This document shows positions 1,469 to 19,595 of a stretch of 23,203 bases of DNA, one piece after another. The stretch's first letter is position 1. Each line of letters opens with the position of its first letter. The stretch comes from a virus. The stretch lies in the IMG/VR virus record IMGVR_UViG_3300036886_000016, positions 1-23,203 of that record; one strand, written 5' to 3'. The notes below the pieces were generated by a model. That model worked only from the letters and a program-made list of their open reading frames with translations, had not been told where the DNA came from and searched no databases. Made by a program: the position numbers and the translations under genes.

Positions 1469-1476
1469 TTCGATCC

Positions 1477-2136: not shown

Positions 2137-2143
2137 AGAGTCC

Positions 2144-3211
2144 TCAGAGCTTCATATAGATCGTACCGATGATCCCGAGCTGCATGTTCTGGTGTGACGT
2201 TCCGCCGCCAACCGCGACGCCGGTAAAGGCGGCCGAGACACCGGTCGATGCCGGCGACGTATTCGATGCGGCGGCGGCGAACGTAGCCGCCTGATTGCTC
2301 GCTGCACCAGAGATGTTGTTCGAGATCGGCAGGGCGTGAAAGTGCGTCGGGTCCGTAATCGCGACCGAGCCGCTCGGCGTGAACGTCGGGATTTGCGCCA
2401 GCGTGAGCGTGACAGCGTTGGACCCGAACAGCGATCCGGGGGTGTTCTGGCTTCCCGTTGCGAACGTAACCCCGGTGAATCGCGATGCAGGACCGGACAC
2501 CGACCCCATCGTGTCGCCGCCGACGACGCCGACATAACCGCGGAGATCGAGTAGCCCGATCGTCTTGTGCGCGGCAAAGTCCGCAGCCGCAGAACCGCCG
2601 CGGCCGCCGCTGACCGGGCACTGCGAGTTCGAGAAGTTCGTCCAGAGATATGAAAACAGACCGGAGCAATCAGCGTTAGCCCGCTCCGTTGCCCCGCTCG
2701 AAGCATCGCCGATGCTGTTGCCGTTGCAGCGCGTCCAGCCGGTCTGCGCTATCCCGTCGGCGCGCGTCTTGATGTCACCGGTGACGAACGTCCCGCCGTT
2801 GAGATTGAACTGAATCCATCCCGCCCCCCCGGCGTCGGGGTTGGTGACGTTGGCATCGGCGGAGGAAAGCCATTGCACGCCGAAGCTGGTTGCCGAGGCC
2901 ACGATCGCGCCGAGCGGATAACCGCTGATCGCCGTCTGAAACGTCGCGTCGTATGGAATCGGTCCCCCGGCGTTCTGCCAGCGGTTCCAGTTCGTGATCG
3001 CAAGCAGGATGCCGTTGAGATCCTGCTCGAACGGGGGAACACCTCCGGCGCTTACCGGTGTGCCGTTGAGCGGGACGAAGCCGTCCGTGAACGATGCAAA
3101 GCCGGGGTTGACGCCGATCTGAGAGGCAACGGGGATCGTCCGGACGTAGGCGCCGCCAGCACTGCTCGCGAACGGGACCGCGATTTTGGTTGGGATGCCT
3201 GACGCCAGCAT
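2144..3211 (-). CDS. Tail fibre protein with collar-type C-terminal domain
   Basis: The ATG at 3211 gives 355 residues. It lies 13 bases after the stop of the DUF2612-type gene and follows a GAAGG. An extension further upstream would be Arg/Ser-rich and lie inside the previous gene, so it was rejected. The N-terminal third (ASGIPTKIAVPFAS, then GGVPPFEQDLNGILLAITNWNRWQ near residues 58-80) resembles baseplate-proximal fibre segments of myoviruses. The second half has the hallmarks of Collar/microcystin-dependent-protein-like fibre tips: a GWTRCNGNSIG element, LLDLRGYVGVVGGDTMG, then TLTLAQIPTF and a His-containing THFHALP. Such proteins form trimeric fibres that touch the cell surface. The gene follows the DUF2612-type gene, the usual place for a first fibre. 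Confidence 0.85.
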   Translation of the reverse strand: MLASGIPTKIAVPFASSAGGAYVRTIPVASQIGVNPGFASFTDGFVPLNGTPVSAGGVPPFEQDLNGILLAITNWNRWQNAGGPIPYDATFQTAISGYPLGAIVASATSFGVQWLSSADANVTNPDAGGAGWIQFNLNGGTFVTGDIKTRADGIAQTGWTRCNGNSIGDASSGATERANADCSGLFSYLWTNFSNSQCPVSGGRGGSAAADFAAHKTIGLLDLRGYVGVVGGDTMGSVSGPASRFTGVTFATGSQNTPGSLFGSNAVTLTLAQIPTFTPSGSVAITDPTHFHALPISNNISGAASNQAATFAAAASNTSPASTGVSAAFTGVAVGGGTSHQNMQLGIIGTIYMKL

Positions 3212-3224
3212 TCGATGAAGACCT

Positions 3225-3884
3225 TCAGGATTGAACGATCGTCGCCGCGACCCCGACCGGCTTCGGCAGAACCCCCGACTGGCCGAGGATCGCAAGTTCG
3301 ACAGAGGTTAGCACAAACTTGAAAGTGTACGCCAAGGTCATGTTTCCGGTGTCCGCCACATAGGCGTTTCCCCGGCCCGGAAAGAGGTTCAGGAGCAGTT
3401 GGTTGATGCTCTTGATCGAACCGTCCGAAATGTTCGACAGAGCCTTCGCGAAGATCAGCGTCCGGAAGCTCGAATCGGAAAGCTGGAAGTTGCTCGTCAG
3501 CGAGGCGCCCGTATAGAACGCCGCCTGATTAAGCGGCTGCGCCGAGAGCGTCGACGCCTCGTCGAAGCCGAAGAAGAGCCCGGGGTTCGCGATGTGGAGC
3601 GTCCGCGTCACCCCGACGATCCGGCCCCAGACGTCGAGCCCGTAGCCCTGCGCCGTGTCGACGTTGAACATGAGGTCGAAGAAGGCGTCGAGGTTCTGCG
3701 TCTGGTCGATGTACTCGTCGAAGTTCGTGATCAGCATCGTGAGTCGATCTGAATTTGCGTATTGACTAATCACAGTCTTCCAGACGTCGAACGTCGGCAT
3801 ATTGCCGATCTGGCTGACGCCGATGGTGAAGGCCCCGATCGCGTTCGACCCCGGGACCGGCCTCGGGAGGGGAGGGCCGCTCAT
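3225..3884 (-). CDS. DUF2612-family baseplate/tail protein
   Basis: 219 residues. The ATG overlaps the baseplate J stop as ATGA, so the two are translationally coupled. The stretch NFDEYIDQTQNLDAFFDLMF followed by NVDTAQGYGLDVWGRIVGV (residues about 54-92) is the signature of the DUF2612 family. This family occupies the position after gene J in many myoviruses and is thought to link the baseplate wedge to the fibres, the role of gpI in P2 or gp48 in Mu. The remainder (SISNISDGSIK-like stretch, LLNLFPGRG, ending GVLPKPVGVAATI) also fits the family. The following gene is a fibre, which supports the role. Confidence 0.88.
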   Translation of the reverse strand: MSGPPLPRPVPGSNAIGAFTIGVSQIGNMPTFDVWKTVISQYANSDRLTMLITNFDEYIDQTQNLDAFFDLMFNVDTAQGYGLDVWGRIVGVTRTLHIANPGLFFGFDEASTLSAQPLNQAAFYTGASLTSNFQLSDSSFRTLIFAKALSNISDGSIKSINQLLLNLFPGRGNAYVADTGNMTLAYTFKFVLTSVELAILGQSGVLPKPVGVAATIVQS

Positions 3885-5332
3885 GTTATCGTGACCGCGA
3901 TGTTCGCCGCCGCGATAATAGGCGACTGGTTTATATTGACAGAGACCGAGTTAAGCGTCGGAGCCGCCGCCACGATGATGCCGCTCAAGACCGTGAGCGA
4001 GTTGTTCAAGTTGTACGTCCCCGTTCCTCCCGCGCCGCTCCCGAGCGAGACGATCTTCGTGCCGGGTACGATTCCTGCCGTTCCGCCGACGGATCCACCG
4101 AACGAACCGGAGAGCGTCTGCCCGACGGCGAGCGCCCCGGAGATGACCGCCGTCACCGTCATGACCGTTCCGTTGATCGAGCCCGTCACCGTCGCGGCCG
4201 GCGAGTTGATCGAGCCGTCGAGGATCGAGATGATCTGTATCCATGACCCGAGCGCGGCGAGCGGGGCGTAGAAGCGGCTGGCGTAGATCGTCGAGCCGAT
4301 CGTCGCCCGCGGTCCGCCGTCGGCCCCGGCGAATGCGTTGATGAGCGCGTTCTGGATCTGCGTCGCGGCGTCCGACGGGACGAGCGCGTTGTTCGCGATG
4401 TTGACCGCGAAGAGGATCTCAAGCCCCGGCGGGATCTCGTACGTCACCTGATAGGACGGAAACGGCTGCGCGTATCCGGCGTTCGAGTCGAGAACCGTCT
4501 TCGTCGTGTTGCCGTTATAGTTGCAGCCCGGAGACTTCTTCGCCCATATCGCGTTCGCGACCGCCTGCGGATCTCCGCCGACCGCGGCGACGTAGACCGA
4601 ATGCGCGACGAGCGAGACCCCGCCGATCGTCGCCGGCGCGTTCGCGACGTTCTCCGTGACGTAGGCGTCGAGGACGCCGGGGACCGCGAGGACCGCGCCG
4701 CGGATCGACGGGAGCGATCCGACCGAGTTCAGCGCGACCGATGCCGCCCGGCGCGCCTCGAATGCCGCCCGGCTCTCGACGTTCGCGCCGAGGACGCCGT
4801 CGGTCGGGTTGTTGATGCTGTCCCACCCGGGGATCGCCTTATAGATCTGCGTTAGCGTGTTCGCCGGGCACGCGGTCGGCCCGACGACGGTCGAGGCGAA
4901 CTGCGCGGAGACCGTCCCGCCGACGCCGATCGTCGAGTCCCCGGTCGCCTGATAGAGCGTCCCGTCCGCCGCGAGCGCGAGCGAGCCGCCCGGGATGACG
5001 ACGCCCGCGAGGCCCGTGCACGTGCACTGGACGACCGTCGGCTCCGCCGGGTTGCGTTCGAGGAAGTAGATCCGCGCGAGGCCGTCCTGCCAGCGCCCGG
5101 AGGCGTAGGCCGGGTCGAGCTGCTGCGTCATGAAGACGAACGTGTCGTTCGAGTTCCCGACGACCGCCGCCTCGCTCGACGCGAGTTGGCCTTGCGGCGT
5201 CGTAAGCGCCGGATCGAGCCCTCCGCCGAACGCCGCGTCGATGTCCTCGGTCACGCCCGCGAGGATCTGCGCCTCCGTCGGAGCGATAAAGCCCGTGGGC
5301 CCGAATGTTGGCTTGGGAACTGATGTTGCCAT
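3881..5332 (-). CDS. Baseplate J-like wedge protein
   Basis: 483 residues. The ATG is one base after the stop of the W-like gene. The order is typical of the baseplate J/gp47 family: N-terminal PTFGPTGFIAPTEAQILAGV, a domain with LTTPQGQLASSEAAV (about 43-57), the conserved core NPTDGVLGANVESRAAFEARR (about 175-195), and LPSIRGAVLAVPGVLDAYVTEN (about 207-228). The protein forms the baseplate wedge around the hub. Residues about 381-448 are a Gly/Thr-rich beta module (TGSINGTVMTVT to GTGTYNLNNSLTV) that is not part of the J fold and is also found in the neck, terminator and sheath proteins of this window. The C-terminal piece after the module (LNSVSVNINQSPIIAAANIAVTI) looks like the normal family end, so the module sits as an insertion near the C-terminus. 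Confidence 0.92.
   Translation of the reverse strand: MATSVPKPTFGPTGFIAPTEAQILAGVTEDIDAAFGGGLDPALTTPQGQLASSEAAVVGNSNDTFVFMTQQLDPAYASGRWQDGLARIYFLERNPAEPTVVQCTCTGLAGVVIPGGSLALAADGTLYQATGDSTIGVGGTVSAQFASTVVGPTACPANTLTQIYKAIPGWDSINNPTDGVLGANVESRAAFEARRAASVALNSVGSLPSIRGAVLAVPGVLDAYVTENVANAPATIGGVSLVAHSVYVAAVGGDPQAVANAIWAKKSPGCNYNGNTTKTVLDSNAGYAQPFPSYQVTYEIPPGLEILFAVNIANNALVPSDAATQIQNALINAFAGADGGPRATIGSTIYASRFYAPLAALGSWIQIISILDGSINSPAATVTGSINGTVMTVTAVISGALAVGQTLSGSFGGSVGGTAGIVPGTKIVSLGSGAGGTGTYNLNNSLTVLSGIIVAAAPTLNSVSVNINQSPIIAAANIAVTIT
3989..4192 (-). repeat. Beta-repeat module copy 4, in baseplate J
   Basis: Encodes about 68 residues with the pattern TGSINGTVMTVTAVISG, a Gly-rich middle, then GSGAGGTGTYNLNNSLTV. 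It matches the modules at 14010-14186, 13462-13638 and 12453-12632 in pattern. It is longer by about 8 residues because of an extra GGSVGGTAG-type stretch in the middle. This is the most divergent of the four copies. Confidence 0.75.
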
Positions 5333-5333
5333 T

Positions 5334-5684
5334 TCAGAAACTCGCCGCCGTCGTGGTCCCAGACGAGTCGGTAATTTGGATCTGGCCCGTCACCACCCTA
5401 TCATTGATCGACGTGATGAAGCACGCGGCCGTCACGACGCCCGGGACCGTAAGCGCCGCCTTCACGAAAAGCGCCTTCATCAGCGCGACCGGCGGAAACT
5501 TCCCGAGAATTTGCTCAAAGTAGGGAATTCCGGGAGCCGTATTAAACCAGAGTTCACCTTTGAAAAGCCGGATCGCGCTCGCGGCATTCTGTGCAAGCGC
5601 GTATGGATTCGACGCGACGGCGATGTTGTTATCGACGTCAACTACGAGGTCCCAGTTTGAAACGTCGAGAAGCAGCGTGCGCAA
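5334..5684 (-). CDS. Baseplate wedge W/gp25-like protein
   Basis: 116 residues, starting at a TTG preceded by a consensus GGAGG with 6-base spacing. No ATG or GTG fits as well. The N-terminus LLLDVSNWDLVVDVDNNIAV, followed by NPYALAQNAASAIRLFKGEL and PYFEQILGKFPP, is the pattern of small baseplate proteins of the gp25/W class in Mu-like and related phages: a DxxxWDL start, then an AxAIRLFxGE helix. gp25-like proteins bind the end of the sheath and initiate its assembly on the baseplate. The gene is followed one base later by baseplate J, the standard W-J order. Confidence 0.85.
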   Translation of the reverse strand: MRTLLLDVSNWDLVVDVDNNIAVASNPYALAQNAASAIRLFKGELWFNTAPGIPYFEQILGKFPPVALMKALFVKAALTVPGVVTAACFITSINDRVVTGQIQITDSSGTTTAASF

Positions 5685-5690
5685 GGTTTG

Positions 5691-5695
5691 CCTCC
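5691..5695 (-). promoter_or_regulatory. Shine-Dalgarno GGAGG fixing a TTG start
   Basis: Read on the minus strand, GGAGG is followed by six bases and then TTG CGC ACG, the start of the W-like baseplate gene. This strong ribosome binding site decides in favour of the unusual TTG codon at 5684. Confidence 0.75.
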
Positions 5696-5720
5696 GGGTT
5701 CTGTCGCCATCCTAACACGT

Positions 5721-6218
5721 TTAGGTGAGGGCTATCTCCCGCCATGCTAAAACCAGTTTTATCCAGAGCCGGGGTGAGGTGGCTAGATTTGTGCCGTCGT
5801 AGCTATAATAAAAATCTCCAGTGGCCCCGATGAAAGAACTCGGTACTGACTGTGTAGTATTGACCAGCAGATTGATTGTTCCAGCCGGGCCGGGTGCGCC
5901 CGCTGCCCCCGCAGCTCCGGCCGCGCCCGCAGCGCCAGCCGCTCCATTTGCTCCATCTGTTCCACGCGCTCCGTTCGCTCCTGGCACGCCGGCCGGCCCG
6001 GCGGGGCCTGGGACCCCGGTGTAGATATTTGGGTCGTGCAGGGAATAATGGCCGCACCACCAATCAGTCTCTACGCCAAGCCATCGCGCGAACGGGAAGT
6101 CGGCCGAATTTGATCCGACAGACTGCGGCACGCTGTTTACGCACGAAAAGACAGGATTAGCCTCCCCCTCGTAGGTAACGGAACGGCCGTAAAAGCAATT
6201 CGAGCATTGGTCGACCAT
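5721..6218 (-). CDS. Collagen-like protein with N-terminal cysteine cluster, within the baseplate gene set
   Basis: The ATG at 6218 lies one base after the stop of the spike gene and gives 165 residues. Residues 1-60 contain CSNC (5-8), Cys26 and a WWCGHYS segment (Cys55), which together could bind a metal or form disulfides. Residues 68-115 are about 16 perfect Gly-X-Y triplets, mostly GAA and GPA, expected to form a collagen-type trimeric helix. The last 50 residues (NLLVNTTQSVPSSFIGATGDFYYSYDG-type) look like a small beta domain ending in LAWREIALT. Collagen-like stretches are common in phage fibres and appendages. The position between spike and W suggests a minor baseplate appendage or decoration. 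Its function is not known. Confidence 0.82.
   Translation of the reverse strand: MVDQCSNCFYGRSVTYEGEANPVFSCVNSVPQSVGSNSADFPFARWLGVETDWWCGHYSLHDPNIYTGVPGPAGPAGVPGANGARGTDGANGAAGAAGAAGAAGAAGAPGPAGTINLLVNTTQSVPSSFIGATGDFYYSYDGTNLATSPRLWIKLVLAWREIALT
5874..6017 (-). repeat. Collagen-type Gly-X-Y repeat coding tract
   Basis: About 16 consecutive Gly-X-Y codon triplets (GVP GPA GPA GVP GAN GAR GTD GAN, then GAA repeated, then GAP GPA). At DNA level it is a GC-rich near-repeat of GCC/GCG and GGC codons. Such tracts tend to change length by slippage. Confidence 0.85.
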
Positions 6219-6219
6219 G

Positions 6220-6942
6220 TTATGTCCCCGCAGTTGGCGCGAGAGTTGTCGCGGCGCCGATTGTGACGCCAGCGTGCTTGTGAGTCTGAAGACCGACCTG
6301 ATCGGCCGTGCCCTGCCCGGCAACGACCGCGCCCTTCGTCTTTATGTCTCCCGCGTAGATCGAGCCGTCGAGCGCCTCGATCGAGCCGGAGAGTTGGAGC
6401 GCGCCGTCGACGAAGACCGGCCCGGTGAGGTGGATGCCGTCCGCTTTCATCTCGATCACGTGGTTGTTCTTATCGGAAAGTTTGATCCCGTCGTCCGTGA
6501 TCGCGATCGTCTGCGTCGCCGCGCCGTTCAGGACGCCGCCGAAGTAGACGCCGTCCGCCGCGTCGAGCTTGCGGAGCGATCCGGGGTTCGCCTGCGCCTT
6601 CGTCGACTTGACCGACGAGATGTCGCGGTCCGCGCAAACCATCACGCCGATGTCGTCGACCTCCGGCGTCAGGATGATCGCGTTCGCACCGGCCTGATAG
6701 ACGAAATACGGGATGCCGAAGATCGTCCCGTGCGGCGTCGAGTTCCCCGCGCCGTCGAGCTGGTTGACCAGCGGTAGGACGTCGACGGTCTTCGCGTCGG
6801 AGTCGACCGCCTGCACCTTGACGAGCTTCATCGTCGAGATCTGCGCGAGCATCTGCTCGATCGTAAAGATCAGGACGTTGTACGCGTCCGCGCTGTCGGA
6901 CGGATCCTGCTGGCCGTAGCCCTGATTCGTTTGCTCGGTCAT
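6220..6942 (-). CDS. Baseplate central spike, Gp138/gpV type
   Basis: 240 residues. The ATG overlaps the hub stop as ATGA. Residues about 35-110 (MKLVKVQAVDSDAKTVDVLP, then HGTIFGIPYFVYQAG and GDIGVMVCADRDIS-like sequence) match the OB-fold of the Gp138 N-terminal family, the spike of contractile tails. Residues about 145-205 form a repetitive beta region (DDGIKLSDKNN, ADGIHLTGPVFVDG, LSGSIEALDGSI) expected to be a trimeric beta-helix. The end, THKHAGVTIGAATTL, carries an H221-K-H223 pair like the HxH motif that holds iron at the tip of P2 gpV and phi92 gp138 spikes. It would pierce the outer membrane on contraction. Its neighbours are the hub upstream and the collagen-like protein downstream. 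Confidence 0.9.
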   Translation of the reverse strand: MTEQTNQGYGQQDPSDSADAYNVLIFTIEQMLAQISTMKLVKVQAVDSDAKTVDVLPLVNQLDGAGNSTPHGTIFGIPYFVYQAGANAIILTPEVDDIGVMVCADRDISSVKSTKAQANPGSLRKLDAADGVYFGGVLNGAATQTIAITDDGIKLSDKNNHVIEMKADGIHLTGPVFVDGALQLSGSIEALDGSIYAGDIKTKGAVVAGQGTADQVGLQTHKHAGVTIGAATTLAPTAGT

Positions 6943-7874
6943 CGCCCCACCGCCGCGAGAACCGGAGCCGGAAACTTCGGATTATAGCCCGAGATCATCA
7001 TCTCCCATTTCCCGTTCGGGAGCTGCGCGTCGAGCGCGAGGTCGAGGCCGTAGATCGCCCAGACGCCGGTCGCGGGCTTCAGGCTGCTGTTGACCTGGAT
7101 CCTCCCGCCGAACGCGATCGACGGGTTATAGACCGACCGCACGATGATCCCGTAGGCCGTATAGGTCGGGTACTGAATCATCCCCGGAGGCTCGACGACC
7201 GGGATCGCGCCACCGCGCGAGCCGTTCTTCGGCCAGATGGCGAGGACGCCGCCCTCGCCGCCGTTCCACGAGATGTTCGCGTCCTTGACGCACTTGAGCG
7301 CCTGCGTCTTCGCCGAGCCGGAGAAGTACGGGCTCGGCAGCTTGACCTGCACGCCGTTGTTCTCGAACCGGAGCCCCATCTGCGTCGCGAGCCCGCTCAT
7401 GATCGTCGCGACGTCGGTCGCGCCCTTGAAGCTCGACGCCGCGACCGGGATCGCCGACTGCGCGAAGAGCGACTGCGCGGAGATCTGGAACGCGACCTCC
7501 GGCGCCCTGTTGAAGTCCGCGTAGGCCGCTATGATGTAGCCGAAGAAGACCGTCGAGAGCCCGTTCGTCTCGTCGCCGGCCGAGACGACGATCTGGTTCT
7601 TCGGGACGAGGTTGATCTGCATCCCGAGCGTCGAGAGCCGGTTCATCATCGACTCGGTCATCCCGAAGATCGTCAGCTCCATCGTCGAACCGAGCGGCCC
7701 GCCCGCGTTGTGGATCCTCGCCGACGTCCGCAGGCTCGGGAGCGTGACGGTGTTGCCGCCGCCCTCGAACGACTGGATCGATGACGACCCGGTCACCGTC
7801 TCCCCGGTCGTCGGATTCTTATCGGTGCTGGACAGCGAGATCGTCACCTCGATCCGCCGCTGTAGGAAGGCCAT
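6939..7874 (-). CDS. Baseplate hub protein (Mu gp44 / P2 gpD-like)
   Basis: 311 residues, ATG start 4 bases after the plug gene. The N-terminus AFLQRRIEVTISLSS, the segment RTSARIHNAGGPLGSTMELTIFGMT (about 48-72), and SLFAQSAIPVAASSFKGATDVATIM (about 134-158) fit the hub proteins of Mu-like and Pam3-like phages, which form the trimeric ring between the tail tube and the spike. Its stop overlaps the start of the spike gene, its direct binding partner. Length is close to the usual 300-370 residues. Confidence 0.85.
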   Translation of the reverse strand: MAFLQRRIEVTISLSSTDKNPTTGETVTGSSSIQSFEGGGNTVTLPSLRTSARIHNAGGPLGSTMELTIFGMTESMMNRLSTLGMQINLVPKNQIVVSAGDETNGLSTVFFGYIIAAYADFNRAPEVAFQISAQSLFAQSAIPVAASSFKGATDVATIMSGLATQMGLRFENNGVQVKLPSPYFSGSAKTQALKCVKDANISWNGGEGGVLAIWPKNGSRGGAIPVVEPPGMIQYPTYTAYGIIVRSVYNPSIAFGGRIQVNSSLKPATGVWAIYGLDLALDAQLPNGKWEMMISGYNPKFPAPVLAAVGR

Positions 7875-7878
7875 CGGC

Positions 7879-8196
7879 TCACGCCTCTACCAAGGTCAGC
7901 AGTTCCGATTGCTCGATATACATCAGGAAGAACCGCGTCTCGATTCCCGTGTAGACCGGGTCTTCGGAACCTTGTGTGTCGACGAACGAGAAGTCCCCGA
8001 CGAATCCGAGATAGGCCGATCTCACGATCCGGTTGAGGTTCTCGCAGATAACGCCGCCGATGATCAGCGCGCCGTTGACGTAGACGTCCATAAAAAGCCC
8101 GGTGCTCTTCTGGTAGACGTTGAGCGTGCAGTTCTGGTTCGCGAGACCGACGCTGACGGTCTGCGATGGGAGCGGTTTGAGCGGGATAATCTGCAC
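7879..8196 (-). CDS. Small baseplate plug protein (Pam3 gp18-like)
   Basis: 105 residues from a GTG start one base after the stop of the Dit-like gene. The start QIIPLKPLPSQTVSVGLANQ and the core NCTLNVYQKSTGLFMDVYVN, followed by GGVICENLNRIV and YLGFVGDFSFVDTQG, match the small beta-sandwich proteins that fill the baseplate plug position in cyanophage Pam3 and many related myoviruses. The gene is directly upstream of the hub gene, the usual place. I recognise the family by pattern only. Confidence 0.82.
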   Translation of the reverse strand: MQIIPLKPLPSQTVSVGLANQNCTLNVYQKSTGLFMDVYVNGALIIGGVICENLNRIVRSAYLGFVGDFSFVDTQGSEDPVYTGIETRFFLMYIEQSELLTLVEA

Positions 8197-8197
8197 G

Positions 8198-8818
8198 TCA
8201 CTGCACCGTATGCGGTTCGATGGTGATCGTTCCTTGGCCCGGCTGCTGCCCCTGCACGGTCCCGCCGTTGACCGGGTTCGCCGCGCTCGGGGACTGCGTG
8301 TTCGTGAACGACGAGGCCGCTGCCGTCTGAACCTGGACTAGCCGCACGTCTACCGTGATCATGCCGACGCCACCCTCCGCCGACCGCCGATAGTCGTAGC
8401 CTGCGACGTTGACGTTCGTGTAGATCGCCTCCGGCGTCACCACGTCGTAAAGATCGACGGTCCCGCCGATCGCGGCGATCTGGTCGAGCAGCGATTGTCG
8501 ATTAGCCTGCGATCCACCGGAGGCGAGTCGAACGCGCGTCATGAACGGTGTGTTGACCTTGTCGTAGGTCTCGAATCCGCCCTGCTCGATCGGGTAGTTC
8601 GCGATCGACCAGTCCTGCTTGTAGGAGAAGTCGGCGACCGTGTCGGCGATCACAACCGGCACGCCGTTCTGGAATATCCCCCACTGCGCCGAGATCGGAA
8701 GTCCGAACGCGCTGATGAGGTCAGAGATCAAAATCTGAACGACGGCGGCCGCCGCGAGCGGGTTGCGCGGAAGCGCCGGGACGCCGGGAGCGATCGGGAC
8801 GTTGGGGAATATCGGCAT
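8198..8818 (-). CDS. Dit-like distal tail/baseplate protein
   Basis: 206 residues, ATG one base after the tape measure stop. The core SAQWGIFQNGVPVVIADTVADFSYKQDW is the pattern of the Dit-like N-terminal domain, and it continues with SIANYPIEQGGFETYDKVNTPF and the Arg-containing RLASGG. The C-terminal 45 residues (TQSPSAANPVNGGTVQGQQPGQGTI) are low complexity and probably disordered. Such proteins cap the tube and connect it to the hub. The order tape measure, Dit-like, plug, hub, spike is standard for this phage type. Confidence 0.83.
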   Translation of the reverse strand: MPIFPNVPIAPGVPALPRNPLAAAAVVQILISDLISAFGLPISAQWGIFQNGVPVVIADTVADFSYKQDWSIANYPIEQGGFETYDKVNTPFMTRVRLASGGSQANRQSLLDQIAAIGGTVDLYDVVTPEAIYTNVNVAGYDYRRSAEGGVGMITVDVRLVQVQTAAASSFTNTQSPSAANPVNGGTVQGQQPGQGTITIEPHTVQ

Positions 8819-8819
8819 T

Positions 8820-10265
8820 CTACTGCTGCCCGTTGTTCGCGCTCGCCGCGTCGTTCTGCCGCTTCAGGATGGCGTCGCGGAAGTCGTTCGCGATCGCCGC
8901 CCCGTTCTCGCCCTTCGCGTAGACGTTGACCGTGTCGATCTTGATCTCCGACGTGCTGGTCGAGGTCGATCCCCCGTTGTTCGTCACGCTCGACTGCGCC
9001 GCGCTTCTCGCGCCCGGGCTCTCACCAACCGGGCCTTTATAACCGTGCCATGCCGATGTGCCGTGCTCGCGCATCCAATCGAGCGAGAATCGGATCTGCT
9101 CCGCCTCCGTTGCAGGATTGCGAGCATCGAGTCCGGTCTTCTTCGTAAAGATGTCGCCCAAACCTCCGACGGCCATCCCACCGCCAGCAACGTTTCCATA
9201 ATGAAGCTGGAACGGCCCAAAGGATGATCCGCGGTCGCCGACGTAGCCGCCCTTTCCTTCTCCGGTCCAGACGCCGACGGCGACGTTCGGGTCGATGGGA
9301 TGCGGACCCTTCACCGCCTCCGCGCGAATGAACGCCTCTCTCTCCGCGTTCGACTTGAACGGGCCGGAGCGGCTCGCAGCGCCGCCCGGGAAAAGCGGCT
9401 GGCCTATCTGCGTCTTTGTGTCCTTGTTCGTGAGATAATCCCACGCCTCGCTCGGCGTCAGGTTCAGGAAGTCCGCCGCTTTGATCGCCGCCGTGAAGAC
9501 GCCGAGCTTTCGGCCGATCGATTCGGCCTTCAGCCCGATCTGGCCCCACCGCTTCTCGAACTCGCCGGCCGCATCGGTCGCGCTAGGGGTCGCTGCACCG
9601 ATCCTCTGGACGTAGTCGAGAATCTCCTTCATCCCCGCCGATCCGCGCAGCAGGAGATCGACGAACGCAGGATCCAGCCCGAGCCGCCGGCCTAGCAGTC
9701 CGGCTTCTGCCGGTCCGTTCGGTCCGCTATCGTGAATGGCCTTCAGATTGTCCGCGAGGTCCATGAGCGCCTGGTCGACGCCCTTGTTGACGTCGATGAC
9801 CTTCCCGCCGGCCGTGCTGATCGCGCGCAGGTCGGCGACCATCGGCGAGATGATGCCTATCTTCCAGCCGGCGAAGACATCCGAGAGCGACGTGAACGAA
9901 CCGGCGAGCCCCTCCGCAGTCCCGCCGAAGATCCTCGCGGCGCCCTGCCACCGCGAGATCGTCTCGACCGAGACGCCGATGTTGCGGTTCAAGCGGCCGA
10001 GGTTCGCGTCGGCGTGCGCGAGCGATAGGAAGAACTCTGTAACGCCGTAGCCGCCGGTGAACGCCGCGAACAGACTGAGCGCCTGCCGGTGCGCGAACGT
10101 GAGCGCCTCGCCAGCGCGCATGCTCGACTGCTCGACCTCCTTCGCGCCCTTGACGGCCGCGGCCTGCGTCTTCTTGAACGCGTCGAGCGCGTCCTTCTGA
10201 TTCTTATTAAACTTGGAAGCATCGAGCCCTAGCGTAACGACAAGGGCGTCAATTTCAGTCGCCAC
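8820..10265 (-). CDS. Short tape measure protein with C-terminal muramidase-like domain
   Basis: 481 residues from a GTG at 10265, 3 bases after the chaperone T stop. The N-terminus (DALVVTLGLDASKFNKNQKDA, residues 6-26) is typical of tape measure proteins, followed by an Ala/Lys-rich helix and a hydrophobic segment around 60-82. Residues about 308-412 hold a peptidoglycan-hydrolase pattern: NAEREAFIRAEA, then WTGEGKGG with Glu336 as the likely catalytic acid, GDRGSSFGPFQLHYG, GGLGDIFTKKTGLD and AWHGYKGP. This is the tail muramidase type found in other phage tape measures and tail lysozymes. About 1.5 angstrom per residue would give a short tail of roughly 70 nm. It lies between the G/G-T chaperones, which fold it, and the Dit-like protein. 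Confidence 0.9.
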   Translation of the reverse strand: MATEIDALVVTLGLDASKFNKNQKDALDAFKKTQAAAVKGAKEVEQSSMRAGEALTFAHRQALSLFAAFTGGYGVTEFFLSLAHADANLGRLNRNIGVSVETISRWQGAARIFGGTAEGLAGSFTSLSDVFAGWKIGIISPMVADLRAISTAGGKVIDVNKGVDQALMDLADNLKAIHDSGPNGPAEAGLLGRRLGLDPAFVDLLLRGSAGMKEILDYVQRIGAATPSATDAAGEFEKRWGQIGLKAESIGRKLGVFTAAIKAADFLNLTPSEAWDYLTNKDTKTQIGQPLFPGGAASRSGPFKSNAEREAFIRAEAVKGPHPIDPNVAVGVWTGEGKGGYVGDRGSSFGPFQLHYGNVAGGGMAVGGLGDIFTKKTGLDARNPATEAEQIRFSLDWMREHGTSAWHGYKGPVGESPGARSAAQSSVTNNGGSTSTSTSEIKIDTVNVYAKGENGAAIANDFRDAILKRQNDAASANNGQQ

Positions 10266-10268
10266 GGC

Positions 10269-10891
10269 CTACGTCCTCTGCTTGCGAAGGATCGCCCGGT
10301 TCTCCGCGTTTATCAGGTCGATCTCGATCATGTCGTAGCAGTCCTCGATGCCGTAGACCGTGCCGAGTTCGTTCAGCGTTGCGAGTCCGGTCGAGACGAC
10401 GGCTCCGATGAGTCCGGAGACGTTCGGGTAGTCCTTGAGCGCCGCCGCGGCTGTCCGTCCACCGACGCCTTCAGCCATTCGGCGGCGGCGGCGAAAGTAA
10501 AACCCGCGTGGAGCTCCAAAATCTTCTGGCGGAGCAGGAGGAGCGTCGAGACCTCTTCGTAGTCCGACGCCATCGTCGGGCGCGTCGTCGTCGAGCGCGC
10601 GGCGCCCGGCACGTTCTGGACGATCTGGATGCAGCCGAGCATCTCGTCCATCAGCGGCTCGACGTTCTCGAACTGCGCCCCGGCGAAGCCCTTGTAGCCC
10701 ATGATCGCGATGCCGATCATGCCGGCCGCCGCGATCTCCGGCGGGATAACGACGTCCTTGTTCGTCATCGCGAGGAAGGCGCGGGCCGCCCACTTCTCCG
10801 TGCGGATCGCGTCCATCTCGGTTAGGAGGAACGTCTTGCCAGAGTCCCGCCCTGGCGCCGTGATGACGACTTCTTCGGTCTTGCGCGGCAC
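10269..10891 (-). CDS. Tail assembly chaperone G-T fusion made by -1 frameshift
   Basis: The frame that encodes the first 131 residues of protein G continues after a one-base backward slip into a second frame ending at the stop 10269-10271. The proposed product is 207 residues. The T part (GGRTAAAALKDYPNVSGLIG to YGIEDCYDMIEIDLINAENR) looks genuinely coding, while the zero frame below about 10450 turns into an Arg/Ser-rich shadow. The slip site G GGT TTT (10505-10499) is in the correct register, and a 9-bp GC stem follows 5 bases later. Fusions of this kind (lambda G-T, P2 E-E') hold the tape measure during tube assembly, and the tape measure gene follows 3 bases later. An alternative is a separate 69-residue protein starting at the ATG at 10478. 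Confidence 0.75.
10373..10891 (-). CDS. Tail assembly chaperone G (unshifted product)
   Basis: 172 residues from a GTG preceded by GGAGG at 6-base spacing. The beginning (TEEVVITAPGRDSGKTFLLTE, residues 5-25) and WAARAFLAMTNKDVVIPPEI are typical of small tail chaperones encoded between tube and tape measure. PLMDEMLGCIQIVQ and YEEVSTLLLLRQKILELHAGF follow. The last 35 or so residues are Arg/Ser/Thr-rich and look like read-through of the other frame, as expected if most conserved sequence continues in the shifted product. The 61-base gap upstream (10892-10952) holds only the ribosome binding site and a weak GC-rich inverted repeat. Confidence 0.8.
   Translation of the reverse strand: MPRKTEEVVITAPGRDSGKTFLLTEMDAIRTEKWAARAFLAMTNKDVVIPPEIAAAGMIGIAIMGYKGFAGAQFENVEPLMDEMLGCIQIVQNVPGAARSTTTRPTMASDYEEVSTLLLLRQKILELHAGFTFAAAAEWLKASVDGQPRRRSRTTRTSPDSSEPSSRPDSQR
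10440..10505 (-). promoter_or_regulatory. Programmed -1 frameshift signal: GGGTTTT slip site plus GC stem
   Basis: On the minus strand, GGGTTTT occupies 10505-10499 and is phased X XXY YYZ with respect to the G frame (GCG GGT TTT). Five bases later begins CGCCGCCGC (10493-10485), which can pair with GCGGCGGCG (10448-10440), a 9-bp all-GC stem with a 36-base loop. Slip heptamer, spacing and downstream stem match known -1 signals in tail chaperone genes. That it is used is inference. Confidence 0.7.
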
Positions 10892-10952
10892 TTAGGCCCT
10901 CCGGCTCTGCGAGGGCGCGATCCTTCCGGCGCGACCGGCCCGATTAAATTTC

Positions 10953-11381
10953 CTACGCGATCGACGGGACGACCGACTTCCAGCGGATCGCGAACTTCTG
11001 CTGCTGCGCGAGCTTCTTGATGTCGGGGATCGGCTTGTAGCCGATCAGGAAGCCGCGCGAGAGCGTCCACTTCTTCCCGAGCGACGGCAGGACGATGAGG
11101 CCCTCGGCGGTCAGCGTATCGAGGAGCGCCTGCTGCTGCGCGTACCACTGATCGAAGATGAAGACCGACTCGCTGTCCGCGAGCAGCGTGACGCCCTGCT
11201 CGAACGGCATGAAGACGAAGCCGCCGGTGAACTCGCCGTCGACGCCCATCATCGTCTCCGACGAGTCGAGGACGTTACCGTCCGCGACCTCGTCGACGCC
11301 GAAGCCCTGGAGTTGGACCGGGGTGTCGAAGAGCCCCGGGATCGTGATCATGAAGACGCAGTTCGCGGCGGTCAGGGACAT
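10953..11381 (-). CDS. Tail tube protein
   Basis: 142 residues. The ATG at 11381 has AGGAG upstream, partly formed by the sheath stop codon. The sequence SLTAANCVFMITIPGLFDTP, the middle with SSETMMGVDGEFTGGFVFMP and VTLLADSESVFIFDQWYAQQ, and the end KFAIRWKSVVPSI fit the small beta-barrel tube proteins of Mu-like, Pam3-like and related myoviruses. The main support is its place directly after the sheath and before the chaperones. It would form the hexameric rings through which DNA passes. Confidence 0.82.
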   Translation of the reverse strand: MSLTAANCVFMITIPGLFDTPVQLQGFGVDEVADGNVLDSSETMMGVDGEFTGGFVFMPFEQGVTLLADSESVFIFDQWYAQQQALLDTLTAEGLIVLPSLGKKWTLSRGFLIGYKPIPDIKKLAQQQKFAIRWKSVVPSIA

Positions 11382-11390
11382 CGTTCGCTC

Positions 11391-13100
11391 CTACTGAATC
11401 ACGACGCTCGTGAGGTTGATCTGCTGGACGCTGCCGCCGTCGGCGTACCAGAACGTGCACGGCGGCGAGCCGCGGGCGGCGCGCACCGTCGGCGACGCGT
11501 CGAGGACCTGAAGATACCAGCCCTGCTGCGTGATCGTCGGCGCGATGTTCGCCTTGGCCGCGGCGTTGACCGCCGCGATCTGCGAGGAGGAGAGCGTGAC
11601 GCCGACGCGGATCGCGCCGAAGTTCAGAGCTTGGTCGATCGTCGACTTGAGCGCCTGCTCGATCGAGGCCCGGCCCGCCGCGTTGTACGGGATCGACTTT
11701 GAGCCGAGTAGAAGCGCGAGCAGCGCGGACTGGAACGAACTGTTGAGCCAAATCTGGTTGCAGTAGGTGTCCATCCACGCGAACGCGCCGGAGACCGACC
11801 CCTTCGCGAGGATGTTGAACTGCGGACCCGCTTCGGCGTAGGCGCCGTAGTAGTTGTAACCGTTCGAGAGCAGGTTCGCCGACGTCGTGAGGTCGGTGAC
11901 GCCCGGCACGAGGCCGGCCTGCGTCCGGAACATGAAGTCCGTCCGGCCGTTCGTCTGCGAGAAGTCGATCGACGCCGCGATCCCCATGACGAAGGCTTGG
12001 TGCATGAGGTCCGACGGCTCCCAAATCGGGAAGCTGCCGGAGTCTCCGGCCGCGATAAGCTGCTGGCCGAGGCTGGAGCTCGCCGGGACCGTCGTCGTCG
12101 GAGACGCGTCGGTGTCCCACGGAACATAGGCGTACTGCTGGTTCTGCCCGGAGGCCCAAGCCGCGAACGCGAGCTTGTTCGTGTTCCCGGAATTATCCGG
12201 GTTGAACGCGGTCGTGAACGTCGCCCAGTTCCTCACCGAGGCGATGAGCGTCGTCATGAAGGCGGAGGGCGTCGCCGCGGCCGCTCCCTGCGATAGGACC
12301 GCGCCGGTCGCGGACGTGAGCAGGAGCGACGTTCCGAGCGCGCCGGACGCGAACGTGATCGTCGAGGTCGAGCCCGCCGAGCCGGAGACGGTGAAGGCCC
12401 CCGAGACGCTGTCGTACTGAACGGCCGGGCTGTAGGCCGTGATCGCCTGCGAGATCGCGGTCTGCGAGGGCGAGACGGTGTAGGTGCCGGCGCCGCCGGT
12501 GCCGGTCAGCGCGCCGACGATGTAGGTCGCCGCGGTCACGCCGGTTCCCGAGAGCACGTCGCCCGCGCTCAGGCCGCCCGAGCCGAGCGCGGTCACGGTC
12601 AGCGTCGTTCCAGCGATCGAGCCGGTGATCGTCGCCGCCTGCGTACCCTCGATGCCGAGCGCCGCGGCGATGATCTCCGCTGCGTTCGAGAACGAGGTCG
12701 CGGCCGAAAGGTTGATGCTCGCCGTCTTGAGGACGCCGTCGATCGTGACCGAGAGCGTCCCGGAGAGCGCCTGAAGCTCGGCGAGCGTCATCGCCGATAT
12801 GTTGCCGCCCCGGAGATAGGCCGAGACCGCCGCCGTCGGATACTGCGCGACGAGCAGCGCGCCGGGCTTCTTGTTCGATCCGTCGAAGCCGGCGAAGTAG
12901 ATCGCGGCCCAGAGCGCCTCGTAGGACGTCCCGCCGAAGAACGAGTTGACCGCCGCCGCGTTCGCGAAGCTCGAGACCGTGCCGACCGGGACGCGCGTAT
13001 TCGCGCTCAGGAGGAGGCCGTTCAGGTCGACCGCAGACCCGCCCGCGGCGAGGACGTTCGGCGTGACGTTGACGAGCTGTGAGGCCGGGATCGTCGACAT
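11391..13100 (-). CDS. Tail sheath protein (DUF3383 family) carrying an inserted beta module
   Basis: 569 residues, ATG with AAAGGA 8 bases upstream. The start TIPASQLVNVTPNVLAAGG, then VDLNGLLLSANTRVPVGTV, YFAGFDGSNKKPGALLVAQY (about 68-87) and AYLRGG is the DUF3383 pattern, the contractile sheath of this phage class. The later conserved parts are VQYDSVSGAFTVSGSAG, PWDTDASP, NGYNYYGAYA, and MDTYCNQIWLN. Residues about 157-216 ([13 protein letters not shown] to GTYTVSPSQTAIS) are the Gly/Thr-rich module that recurs in three other proteins here. It interrupts the outer domain between EIIAAALG and the VQYDSVSGAF stretch, so it probably protrudes from the tail surface. The sheath drives contraction; tube and sheath genes are adjacent as usual. 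Confidence 0.9.
   Translation of the reverse strand: MSTIPASQLVNVTPNVLAAGGSAVDLNGLLLSANTRVPVGTVSSFANAAAVNSFFGGTSYEALWAAIYFAGFDGSNKKPGALLVAQYPTAAVSAYLRGGNISAMTLAELQALSGTLSVTIDGVLKTASINLSAATSFSNAAEIIAAALGIEGTQAATITGSIAGTTLTVTALGSGGLSAGDVLSGTGVTAATYIVGALTGTGGAGTYTVSPSQTAISQAITAYSPAVQYDSVSGAFTVSGSAGSTSTITFASGALGTSLLLTSATGAVLSQGAAAATPSAFMTTLIASVRNWATFTTAFNPDNSGNTNKLAFAAWASGQNQQYAYVPWDTDASPTTTVPASSSLGQQLIAAGDSGSFPIWEPSDLMHQAFVMGIAASIDFSQTNGRTDFMFRTQAGLVPGVTDLTTSANLLSNGYNYYGAYAEAGPQFNILAKGSVSGAFAWMDTYCNQIWLNSSFQSALLALLLGSKSIPYNAAGRASIEQALKSTIDQALNFGAIRVGVTLSSSQIAAVNAAAKANIAPTITQQGWYLQVLDASPTVRAARGSPPCTFWYADGGSVQQINLTSVVIQ
12453..12632 (-). repeat. Beta-repeat module copy 3, in the tail sheath
   Basis: Encodes about 60 residues, [17 protein letters not shown] to GTGGAGTYTVSPSQT. 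It shares the exact 20-base word GTCAGCGTCGTTCCAGCGAT (plus strand, 12598-12617) with the copy in the neck gene (14155-14174), so the two are related at DNA level. Confidence 0.8.
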
Positions 13101-13113
13101 GAGATTTATCCTT

Positions 13114-13842
13114 TCACGGCGGGTAGGCTACATCGACGTCGATGACCGTCACGGAGACCGCGTCGCCGTACTGCTGCGGCGTCCCGGTGACCGTCTCGTT
13201 CGCCTGCAGATGCGCCTCGACGACCCATCGGTCCTCGTACTGCTGCTCGGCGTTCAGGAACGGCATCTGGCGCGGATCGTCGGCGTAGAGCGGGGTGACG
13301 GCGGCGTTCAGCGCGGTCATGAAGTCGACCGCGCTCGCGTCGCGGAGAAGCGTCGAGATGATCTGCGCGTTGTCGGCGCCGGAGGGGCCGTGCACGTCGA
13401 GCTGGACGACGATCTCCGTCTCCTGGACGACGTCGATCGAGCCGCACGAGAGGTTCGCGCTTCCGAGCGCCTGCGACGGCGAGACCTTGTAGGTCCCCGG
13501 CCCACCGGTTCCTGACGTGAACGACGTGATCGTCGTCGAGGCCGCGATGCCGGTCCCGAAGATCGTCGCGCCGAGCGCGAGTATCCCGATCAGGACCGAC
13601 GAGACCGTCAGCACGTTACCGGCGATCGAACCGACGAAGAGGCAGTCGTTGTCCCCGTCGAGGTTCGTCCCGAGGCGCTGGCGCCGGATCGGCGTCATAA
13701 GGACGAAGTCCTTCGCCTTCGGTTCCGGCACGCGATTCACCTGTGCCAAGATAACCTCGACCTTGCTCGGCAAGACGTTGAGCAAGAAGGCCCGGAGGAC
13801 CTTCAGGACGGAGGATTGAGTCGGTGCGACGGCGATGGTCAC
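13114..13842 (-). CDS. Neck / tail terminator protein (gp12-like) with inserted beta module
   Basis: 242 residues from a GTG at 13842; the same frame has a TGA a few codons upstream, which limits the start. The N-terminal part (VLRAFLLNVLPSKVEVILAQ, residues 15-34) with PEPKAKDFVLMTPIRRQRLGT, and the C-terminal part (VQLDVHGPSGADNAQIISTL, ALNAAVTPLYADDPRQMPF, QYEDRWVVEAHLQANETV) match phage neck terminator proteins that cap the tube below the connector. Between them, residues about 69-127 are the repeated Gly/Thr module (VGSIAGNVLTVSSV to GTYKVSPSQ). The gene is followed by the sheath. The start codon has only a weak ribosome site; the 65-base gap upstream holds no clear promoter or terminator. 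Confidence 0.85.
   Translation of the reverse strand: MTIAVAPTQSSVLKVLRAFLLNVLPSKVEVILAQVNRVPEPKAKDFVLMTPIRRQRLGTNLDGDNDCLFVGSIAGNVLTVSSVLIGILALGATIFGTGIAASTTITSFTSGTGGPGTYKVSPSQALGSANLSCGSIDVVQETEIVVQLDVHGPSGADNAQIISTLLRDASAVDFMTALNAAVTPLYADDPRQMPFLNAEQQYEDRWVVEAHLQANETVTGTPQQYGDAVSVTVIDVDVAYPP
13462..13638 (-). repeat. Beta-repeat module copy 2, in the tail terminator
   Basis: Encodes about 59 residues, VGSIAGNVLTVSSVLIG to SGTGGPGTYKVSPSQ, same pattern and length as copies 1 and 3. It lies between the RLGTNLDGD segment and the GSIDVVQETEIVVQLDV strand of the host protein, a spot that varies in length in this family. Confidence 0.78.
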
Positions 13843-13907
13843 TGAGCGGAGACCCGTGGAACGTCAGAGCCTCCTTAACACGACGCCGAACCCTTTGTGT
13901 AGATATT

Positions 13908-14483
13908 TCAAGAGCCGTCTTGGAGCGTCACACAAAGCTTGCTCCAGTCGGGCCAAGACTCCAAAACTAGGGCCACGAGCCAGACGGCCCCGCTCGTCAT
14001 GGCGACCGGGCCGACGGTCTGATCGATGTCGACCTCGTAAGTGCCTATGCCGCCGGCGCCGGTCCCGAGCGCCGTGATCGATGTTCCGTCGAGGATGCCG
14101 CTCCCGGCGAGACCGGCGCCGACCGCGATCTGGCCGGAGAGGACGCTCGTGACCGTCAGCGTCGTTCCAGCGATGGAACCTGTGAAGAACGCCCCGGGGA
14201 CCGTGACGAGGTCGCCGCCGCGGTTCTCGACGCGGACGAGCCCCTCGACGCGGCCGTTGACGTAGATCGCCCGGCGCGTGCCCTGGAGGTTCAGGCCGTC
14301 GATCTGCTGAATGTCGCGGAAGGTGAGCGACTGGACCTGACCGGGCACCGAGACCGCCGGCGCGTAGGACGGAACCCGCGTCCCGTCGTCGTCGGTCGAG
14401 TAGCCGGTCGAGACCCGGATAGAGATCGGTAGGAACGGATTAACGGTCCCTATCGCGCCCGCGGCGATTTGATGGAGGTTCAA
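13908..14483 (-). CDS. Neck/connector protein carrying an inserted beta module
   Basis: 191 residues from a TTG at 14483, preceded by GGAG with 6-base spacing. The ATG codons further in would lose conserved-looking sequence. The N-terminal part ([20 protein letters not shown], then [20 protein letters not shown] and [20 protein letters not shown]) and the end ([20 protein letters not shown]) look like a small neck protein that joins the head connector to the tail terminator. It occupies that position. Residues about 100-158 are the Gly/Thr-rich module also found in the terminator, sheath and baseplate J. The module falls in what should be a turn between VTVPG and VWLVALV. It is the first tail gene after the metabolic cassette, 3 bases after the radical SAM stop. 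Confidence 0.75.
14010..14186 (-). repeat. Beta-repeat module copy 1, in the neck protein
   Basis: Encodes about 59 residues, [18 protein letters not shown] to [18 protein letters not shown]. It contains the same exact 20-base word (plus strand 14155-14174) as the sheath copy (12598-12617). Confidence 0.8.
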
Positions 14484-14486
14484 TTC

Positions 14487-15959
14487 CTACTCCGCCGCTG
14501 CTGTCTCCGGTTCGAGCAGCCTACGCCGAAGCGTGTGGCGAGTCATCTGCCGGACGTGCGCGACGGTCGCGGCGCCGAACTTCTTCCCGATCATCGCGAG
14601 GTAGTCCGGATCGCTGAAGTAGGTCCGGAAGGCGTCGTCGCGGAACTTCAGGACGCGCGCCGCGTCGACGTGGAGCGTGTCGAGCGGCCGGCAGTCCTCG
14701 GAATGCTGACTGTAGCCGAGCCACGTCGCCGGGAGCGTCGAGCCCTTCGCGACCGCCTCGGCGAAGAGCGGCGAACCCGGATAGGCCATCGCGCTATAAA
14801 AATTTGCGAAGTCCGTGTTGAGCTCCAGCGCGAGGTCGAGCGTCGTCTGCATCGAATAGGCGTCGTCGTCCGGAAGCCCGAAGATGTAGTTCCCGATGAC
14901 GTTGATCCCCGCCGCCTGAATCTGCCGGACGATCCCGACGATGTCGTCGTTCTTGAGTTTCTTCGACGCGCCGTCACGCACGAAGGCGCTCCCGGATTCG
15001 ATCCCGAGCGCGAGCCAGCGGATTCCGGCGGCGCGCAGGAGCGCGAGCTTCTCCGGCTTGACCGTGTCGATCCGCGAATACGCCCAGATGTTGAGGCGCG
15101 ACGCGATCCCCGAGGCGACGAGGCCCTCGCAGATCGCCGTGTAGTGCCGCTCGTTGAGGACAAACATCTCGTCGACGATCTTGAACACTTGAACTCCGTA
15201 TTTAGAGTTCAAGTTGACGATCTCCGCGACGACCTTCGCCGGGTCGCGCATCCGGTATCGGCGCGAGGCGAACGGCGCGTTGATGCAGCAGAAGTCGCAG
15301 GCGTACGGACAGCCGAACGACGTGTGGATCGAGGCGTACGGCTTGCGCGCCGAGAGATCGCCGAAGCATTGCCAGTTGTGCGCCCGGTAGCGGTCCATCG
15401 GGAGGAGATCCCACGCGTCGCCGTCGAGATCGTCGATGTCGAGGAGCGGGGCGCGGGGATTGATGATAATCGGCTCCCGCTTTCCATATACGAGTCCAGG
15501 GATAGCCTCGAAATCATCACCGGCGAGCAATCCGGTGATCGTAATGGGACCCTCGCCGACACATGCAAAATCAATCATTTCCTCACGAAGAGTCCGCTCC
15601 GGAAGCGCGGAGACGTGACCGCCGACCATAATGATCGGAACAGAACCCTTGCGGGCCTTAATCGCGCGCGCCGTTAGGCCGGCGGCGTGCATCTGTTGCG
15701 TGGCCCCACTAGGTTGATGACCGTATGCAGCGATGCAGACTAATCTTGGGTTGAACTCGCGAACGAGGAGCGCTACCTGTTCTGGATCAAGTTTCATCGC
15801 TTCAGCGTCAATAATTTTAACGCTAAATCCGCGAGCGCGGATATATCCAGCCATCACGCGGCCCCACAATGGTGGCTCCACGGCCACCAGATCGGAACCG
15901 AGTTCTCCGTAGATTCCGTGAACCCCCCCGGGATGAATTACGACAAGATCAAGCGACAT
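14487..15959 (-). CDS. B12-binding-domain radical SAM protein
   Basis: 490 residues, ATG start overlapping the end of the HNH gene by 11 bases. The N-terminal 145 residues have the alternating beta-alpha pattern of a cobalamin-binding domain (LDLVVIHPGGVHGIYG, VEPPLWGRVMAGYIRARGF, KIIDAEA, PRLVCIAAYGHQPSG, IIMVGGHVSALP), without the DxHxxG motif, as in the BchE-like class. The radical SAM core follows with TSFGCPYACDFCC, giving the iron-sulfur ligands Cys217, Cys221 and Cys224 (CxxxCxxC). Later are KIVDEMFVLNERHY, WLALGIESGS and YIFGLPDDD, all usual for the family. These enzymes do methylations or other radical rearrangements; the substrate cannot be read from sequence. The 5' third (above about 15460) has lower GC than the rest. 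Confidence 0.9.
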   Translation of the reverse strand: MSLDLVVIHPGGVHGIYGELGSDLVAVEPPLWGRVMAGYIRARGFSVKIIDAEAMKLDPEQVALLVREFNPRLVCIAAYGHQPSGATQQMHAAGLTARAIKARKGSVPIIMVGGHVSALPERTLREEMIDFACVGEGPITITGLLAGDDFEAIPGLVYGKREPIIINPRAPLLDIDDLDGDAWDLLPMDRYRAHNWQCFGDLSARKPYASIHTSFGCPYACDFCCINAPFASRRYRMRDPAKVVAEIVNLNSKYGVQVFKIVDEMFVLNERHYTAICEGLVASGIASRLNIWAYSRIDTVKPEKLALLRAAGIRWLALGIESGSAFVRDGASKKLKNDDIVGIVRQIQAAGINVIGNYIFGLPDDDAYSMQTTLDLALELNTDFANFYSAMAYPGSPLFAEAVAKGSTLPATWLGYSQHSEDCRPLDTLHVDAARVLKFRDDAFRTYFSDPDYLAMIGKKFGAATVAHVRQMTRHTLRRRLLEPETAAAE

Positions 15960-16452
15960 GCGCCCACGCCTTCCGTTTGCGGATTGCAGTGATCAACGAT
16001 TTATGGACACTGAACTGCCGCGCTAAGTCGACGCCGCGCTTATCGCTTAATCTGATTTCCCGAACCTTTTCATCGTCTAATATAGCGTTGCCGTTCTTGA
16101 TTCCCGGCAACGACTTTGCCGGTCCATTTTGGCGACCCCTGGCGCTGCAATCGCGCATATTATCGGTGTTTGTTCCTAGGAAAAGATGGGCTGGATTGCA
16201 GCACGACGGATTATCGCAGCGGTGACAAACGAAAAGACCGGCCGGGATTGGCCCATTATGAATTTCCCAAGAGATGCGATGTGCGTAAAGATTCTTCCTA
16301 TAGTTTTCGAGACGACGCCTGATGTGGAGCGATCCATAACCCACACCGTTGGTGTCCCCTGTCCATCCCCAACATCCGTCCCGAACGAGAACCTTCTCCC
16401 AGAATCGATCCGCAATCGGTCGACTCTTCCTCGTATATTGACCTGATGGCAT
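15949..16452 (-). CDS. HNH endonuclease, likely free-standing homing enzyme
   Basis: 167 residues from the ATG at 16452, which overlaps the epimerase stop as TGATG and has GGGAA upstream. A longer GTG form would extend 11 codons into the epimerase. RFWEKVLVRDGCWGWTGDTN (16-35) is the usual opening of this HNH group. The active-site region runs from AHRISWEIHNGP (His58) to CHRCDNPSCCNPAHLFLGT (Cys76, Cys79, Cys84 and Asn86/His89), the zinc-holding HNH_3 type. Residues 123-160 (AILDDEKVREIRLS to SLITAIRKR) form a helix-turn-helix for DNA recognition. The gene is AT-richer than the epimerase and radical SAM genes it separates. Confidence 0.92.
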   Translation of the reverse strand: MPSGQYTRKSRPIADRFWEKVLVRDGCWGWTGDTNGVGYGSLHIRRRLENYRKNLYAHRISWEIHNGPIPAGLFVCHRCDNPSCCNPAHLFLGTNTDNMRDCSARGRQNGPAKSLPGIKNGNAILDDEKVREIRLSDKRGVDLARQFSVHKSLITAIRKRKAWAHVA

Positions 16453-17387: not shown

Positions 17388-17398
17388 CGAGTTTCCCT

Positions 17399-19594: not shown

Positions 19595-19595
19595 T

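Follow-up and report, generated by a model that had tools for sequence, protein, structure and literature searches.

A small in-frame insert recurs in neck, terminator, sheath and baseplate proteins of an environmental phage and in virion proteins of many others

The IMG/VR virus record IMGVR_UViG_3300036886_000016, a complete record of 23,203 bases that was analysed over its whole length (here referred to as the window), has an E217-like contractile-tail gene set on its minus strand. Four proteins of this set, the neck, terminator, sheath and baseplate J-like proteins, carry copies of one module, and sequence comparison with relatives indicates that the module was inserted in frame and is not an ancestral part of the host folds. 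The domain is genuine, widely distributed and so far unnamed, occurs promiscuously among virion proteins and is not unique to this phage. We give an even chance to the reading that it is a surface decoration domain spread by recombination, working as immunoglobulin (Ig)-like domains do although it is placed internally and its fold appears to differ; the role in decoration is proposed by analogy.

All four hosts and their module copies are encoded on the minus strand. Copy 1 (13992..14195) lies in a neck or head-completion (collar-like) protein (13908..14483; phrog_1912, E 4e-34), for which the link to the E217 collar protein gp28 is weak (Pfam E 0.028, below the cutoff). Copy 2 (13438..13647; DCLFVGSIAG...SQALGSANLSCGS) is in the neck/tail terminator (13114..13842; PF23961, E 3e-23; phrog_1876) and copy 3 (12432..12638; AATITGSIAG...SQTAISQAITAY) in the tail sheath (11391..13100; DUF3383, PF11863, E 3e-128; phrog_205). 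Copy 4 (3968..4198; AATVTGSING...SLTVLSGIIVA), which itself contains a 9-residue insertion, is near the C terminus of the baseplate J-like wedge protein (3881..5332; PF04865, E 2e-16; phrog_6; E217 gp44, PDB 8env_J). The host assignments hold for all four proteins, in line with the preliminary description of this DNA, in which the host families were said to be recognizable around the module. The tail tube protein, which resembles E217 gp32 (10953..11381, minus strand), is without the module and provides an internal contrast.

In an alignment of the four translations, the motif copies are 51–59% identical in pairs and share 18 invariant columns. A profile of the module run over the window returned exactly four copies, each with E 3e-26 or better, and many more were found in environmental viral contigs. 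Translations, alignment and profile agree on one module at the positions reported earlier. The length of 60–68 residues given at that time holds for the motif ranges but not for the true extent: among 397 copies the flanks are also conserved (A at −2; (A/S)-S-x-x-(I/M)-x-A at +1 to +7 past the motif), so that the unit comprises about 68–70 residues and each copy is about 8–10 residues longer than first reported. The most conserved positions are G21, G26, G31, G46, G48, G49, G51, T14, T38, I40, T52 and Y53.

Close relatives were retrieved by sheath and compared with modules masked. For the neck protein, 10 of the 12 relatives (near-duplicate loci, L091/L092 and L089/L095, are included in the comparison) have no module and a clean junction, for example GGDLITLP|DNSVWLV, compared with GGDLVTVP(module)GAVWLV in the window; in relatives L094 and L097 the module is present in another loop. 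The module is missing from the sheaths of L073 and L060, and those of the other relatives carry it once or twice in one shared position; the sheaths of Pa193 and E217 (504 amino acids) are without it, and the best sheath matches from cultured phages, at about 490–504 amino acids, have no room for it. In baseplate J, the C-terminal copy is kept in all retrieved relatives, two of which (L016 and L094) have an additional clean insertion at ADGG|PRARIG; E217 gp44 ends 28 residues beyond the last aligned position and has no module. The terminator carries the module in nearly all relatives, although it is missing in L085, and in L018 a second site is occupied as well. Overall, there are at least seven distinct insertion sites over the four gene families. 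The presence and absence of the module among relatives, at empty and alternative sites, confirms that it was inserted into unrelated virion proteins; the neck, sheath and baseplate J comparisons exclude the possibility that it is ancestral to each family, which the preliminary description had held open, and the single empty site of L085 does so for the terminator.

The insertion points are located in loops of the host folds, as had been proposed. When the sheath is aligned with that of Pa193/E217, the module falls between residues 148 and 161. Residues 91–210 of the Pa193 sheath form a flexible domain separate from the core (PMC11042391), which we infer to be equivalent to domain A of the E217 sheath, a domain that is missing from the smaller pyocin sheath (PMC10329688). 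The predicted structure of the window sheath (pLDDT 76.5) matches the Pa193 sheath (9b42_S) with Z 32 over 455 residues, and it is therefore a complete sheath that carries the extra domain. The neck site falls, in a weak alignment, 5–8 residues beyond collar loop 81–86, which contacts the gateway in Pa193; the alignments of the neck and terminator proteins to E217 gp28 and gp29 are weak, and their insertion points on solved structures are tentative.

Structure prediction of the isolated module (AlphaFold, 79 diverse copies) gave a pLDDT of 97.3 and a pTM of 0.83, and the module is, as modelled, an independently folding unit. PDB sequence searches with the module found no credible relative and a PDB search with the terminator profile found no match; matches of the neck profile to designed TIM barrels were taken as spurious. 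The best match among solved folds is a 124-residue chain of the Arthrobacter phage Bridgette entry 8ECI (Foldseek E 0.078, TM 0.69; VIA Z 5.6, 30% identity over 57 residues). Other matches are to segment 104–171 of the Mystique tail tube 9N71 (VIA Z 4.9, 23% identity over 53 residues), a G1-ATPase segment (Z 5.1) and the N-terminal parts of F1/V1 ATPase subunits (Z about 4–4.7), the ATPase domains being barrels. The nearest folds thus appear to be small and beta-barrel-like, not immunoglobulin; all Z values are below 8, which may reflect only a common arrangement, and no family is assigned. Antibody structures rank behind the small barrels (Foldseek E > 2, TMq 0.20–0.31, root-mean-square deviation of about 8 Å), a Pfam search with the four modules gave no match to an Ig family (Big, I-set or FN3) at E ≤ 1, and no Pfam family matches the module. 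Among predicted viral structures, segments matching the module (TM > 0.9, about 50% identity) are part of an HK97 major capsid protein, a P22 gp10-like protein and several tail proteins. It is also present in Indivirus ILV1, a giant virus, within a collagen-repeat protein (BFVD A0A1V0SCQ2; 51% identity, TM 0.92), which suggests either transfer across virus realms or a contaminating contig.

Three module scans of environmental viral contigs, deduplicated and giving lower bounds, found at least 460 distinct copies in at least 316 proteins with at least 41 flank clusters, which were made by BLAST and some of which may be each other's distant relatives. Among the matches listed, almost all hosts are virion or secreted proteins, and the module is internal in 97% of copies (at least 30 host residues on either side). 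The viral hosts include SU10-type adaptor, Hc3 head closure, minor head, virion structural, tail, fibre and spike families, and some proteins carry copies in tandem. In bacterial genomes, the module is found in long, lectin-like proteins with Laminin_G_3, FG-GAP or Ig domains and in one GH5 protein. Carriers are rare among cultured phages: with a natural copy as the query, seven of 50,697 records matched, five of them strongly, a count that is lowered by low-complexity filtering. The carriers are the Sinorhizobium phages phiLM21 and phi3LM21, in a fibre, and two Manatee Spring assemblies. A tblastn search of cultured phages with the module consensus gave no match, probably owing to the same filtering. 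In both Sinorhizobium phages, the module-bearing fibre gene adjoins an FkbM methyltransferase gene (L260, 6001–8000; L261, 5001–7023).

The composition of the module, on which the preliminary description did not remark, is unusual. Charged residues have a median of 2.7%, compared with 15% in the hosts, and are fewer than in the host in all 316 proteins among the matches listed; Thr, Gly and Ser together make up 49%. In the two best-sampled families, the ratio of nonsynonymous to synonymous substitution rates (dN/dS) is 0.089 for the module and 0.072 for the host, and 0.125 and 0.108, respectively, with the other families being close to saturation. Because these values are close to those of the hosts, the module is under purifying selection.

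How the module spreads can be read from the identities of its copies. Mean identity is 67.6% for the same slot in different genomes, whereas copies in different genes are 52.2% identical within the same genome and 51.0% identical between genomes (matched difference, +0.8 points). From this comparison of slot-wise and genome-wise identities, each copy moves along with the gene that carries it, and no recent copying within a genome can be seen. The preliminary description had deduced DNA copying within the genome from a 20-base word common to the neck and sheath copies (ATCGCTGGAACGACGCTGAC). The word exists, but a 20-mer was reached in 13 of 400 synonymous shuffles for this pair, one of six pairs tested, and is only marginally unexpected; the pair shares 20 codons at identical residues compared with 13.6 expected (z 2.4), and the other pairs are near expectation. 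Nor do the copies look like a selfish in-frame mobile element, as had also been suggested: no significant flanking repeats, target duplications or mobility gene were seen at module copies, GC content is as in the host, selection is as strong as in the host, and a module of 68 amino acids has no room for an enzyme. The within-genome copying and selfish-element readings should be dropped, and the spread is most simply explained by ordinary recombination over a long period.

In the decoration reading, a small beta-barrel-like unit of about 68 residues has been spliced in frame into the loops of virion proteins by ordinary recombination, here and in many phages, and would be displayed on the particle. 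Surface display would be expected, as these loops accommodate an entire additional domain while the virion protein around it is otherwise complete. An E217-type tail has about six copies of each ring protein and about two hundred sheath subunits, so that the modules could form a layer that makes weak, multivalent and non-essential contact with host-surface or environmental polymers, as for the Ig-like domains of some phages. Several points weigh against this. The neck copy may not be free but lie where subunits meet; purifying selection could mean no more than that the virion protein must not misfold; and, with 0.1% Trp and about 3% charged residues, the module is unlike typical carbohydrate-binding modules, a shortage that disfavours a classic sugar-binding site. 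It is also conceivable that the inserted barrels serve as structural cement, contacting neighbouring subunits to stiffen or seal the connector and sheath. Modules are concentrated in adjacent ring proteins (adaptor and head closure; neck, terminator and sheath), with adaptor and head closure both module-bearing in 83 of 189 loci and terminator and sheath co-occurring too, but this co-occurrence is inflated by neighbouring genes sharing retrieved loci. The neck site is near the collar–gateway contact loop, and the best solved fold match is a chain from the entry of Bridgette, a phage with capsomere-bridging cement proteins (PMC13033339). However, each host works without the module in relatives, within a genome the modules of neighbouring proteins show no mutual matching (the 52.2% and 51.0% given above), and the module is also present in tail fibres, spikes and bacterial lectin-like or GH5 proteins. 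We regard a cementing role as unlikely.

A passenger that is near-neutral or selfish, idle in its host and persisting by folding well, disturbing nothing and recombining often, would fit the huge spread over unrelated hosts, the tandem copies and the variable presence at each site. Such an origin is rather improbable given host-like GC content, the lack of flanking repeats or target duplications at the copies, same-genome copies that are not excessively similar, and dN/dS values like those of the hosts; furthermore, the near confinement of the module to virion and secreted-type proteins is not required of a passenger. The composition itself raises the idea of a charge-free shield or O-glycan acceptor, in which a Thr/Ser/Gly-rich skin alters surface chemistry and is possibly where phage-encoded sugars attach. 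The low charge and the 49% Thr, Gly and Ser agree with this, as do the epimerase, DegT aminotransferase and other nucleotide-sugar-type enzymes encoded in the window and the FkbM methyltransferases beside the Sinorhizobium fibres; yet no Pfam-recognized glycosyltransferase was found among the window genes scanned, and sugar genes are common in phages, which leaves the idea very doubtful. A broader proposal, which we also consider distinctly unlikely, is a virus-wide ‘skin’ domain: a charge-free Thr/Gly/Ser-rich barrel in nearly all exposed structures of the virion (connector, sheath, baseplate, fibres and capsid), and possibly in a giant virus (Indivirus), that would determine surface chemistry as a shield, by presenting glycans or by sticking to hydrogels, and would be distinct from Ig-like decoration.

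The closest known parallel to a decoration domain of this kind is provided by the Ig-like domains of phages (Big_1/Big_2, I-set and FN3; Fraser et al. 2006), reviewed in PMC9022992; they occur in about 25% of tailed phages and in five virion protein classes, and their roles are unclear, although some losses impair infection. Those on the capsid and tail of Douge bind mycobacterial glycans (PMC13033339). Like the module, Ig-like domains are small beta domains that are common to unrelated virion proteins, variably present and thought to aid surface contact. The module differs in having no Pfam Ig match and nearest folds that are small and barrel-like. It is also predominantly internal, whereas a C-terminal position is found for many of the phage Ig-like domains, with YSD1 providing a known case of an inserted one. 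Its neck, terminator, adaptor and head-closure hosts are beyond the five virion classes of PMC9022992. Two existing profiles, phrog_21413 (about 399–465) and phrog_38233 (about 555–630), contain the module as a segment (isolated copies, E 1e-13 to 4e-8), but they represent whole proteins of tail-fibre type or of unknown function, in which it is not recognized as a separate mobile domain. Phage domain mosaicism, in which unrelated structural proteins likewise share a recombined domain, has reported hotspots in receptor-binding proteins, endolysins and polymerases, with one neck-passage example and no mention of the sheath (Smug et al. 2023, PMC10684548). The tails of the Pbunavirus phages E217 and Pa193 have the same gene order and families as the window (collar, gateway, sheath, tube and baseplate J), but none of the E217 proteins of these families carries the module.

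This abundant unnamed domain reaches the neck, terminator, adaptor, head closure and sheath, which are absent from the published list of Ig-carrying proteins. The clean empty sites of relatives show, as a map made by nature, which positions in tailed phages can take up an additional domain, and the charge depletion is a testable clue to the role of such decoration domains. Recognition of the module should also help the annotation of metagenomic phage proteins, as profiles of tail-fibre type match unrelated connector proteins through it.

Some other genes in the window and in another locus deserve mention. The baseplate region encodes a collagen-like repeat protein (PF01391; 5721–6323, minus strand). 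Fibre-like proteins with an apparent N-terminal signal peptide, which is odd in a virion, are found in the window (2–1504, minus strand; MKKLAAALVACAALLAPVGAALA) and in locus L109 (6640–8172, plus strand; MKKLLLLSTLLLFPLQAEA). L109 also encodes a 1,399-residue GH5 protein (947–5146, plus strand) with two tandem modules inserted in a GH5-like domain; the first GH5 part of the protein has a sibling-looking insert (ISGTGIPGNTTVISVDTPTQFTISNAATAAGT) that hints at a wider superfamily. We set this protein aside as support for a polysaccharide-binding role because its neighbours look fibre-like and it may belong to a prophage. An HNH_3 endonuclease gene (15949–16485, minus strand) is situated between the tail cluster and the sugar genes of the window. 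Non-virion genes at 14487–20342 (minus strand) encode a B12-binding radical SAM enzyme, an NAD epimerase, a DegT/DnrJ aminotransferase and a gene pair matching E1 dehydrogenase alpha and the transketolase pyrimidine-binding domain, and this cluster looks like a phage-carried nucleotide-sugar or small-molecule pathway.

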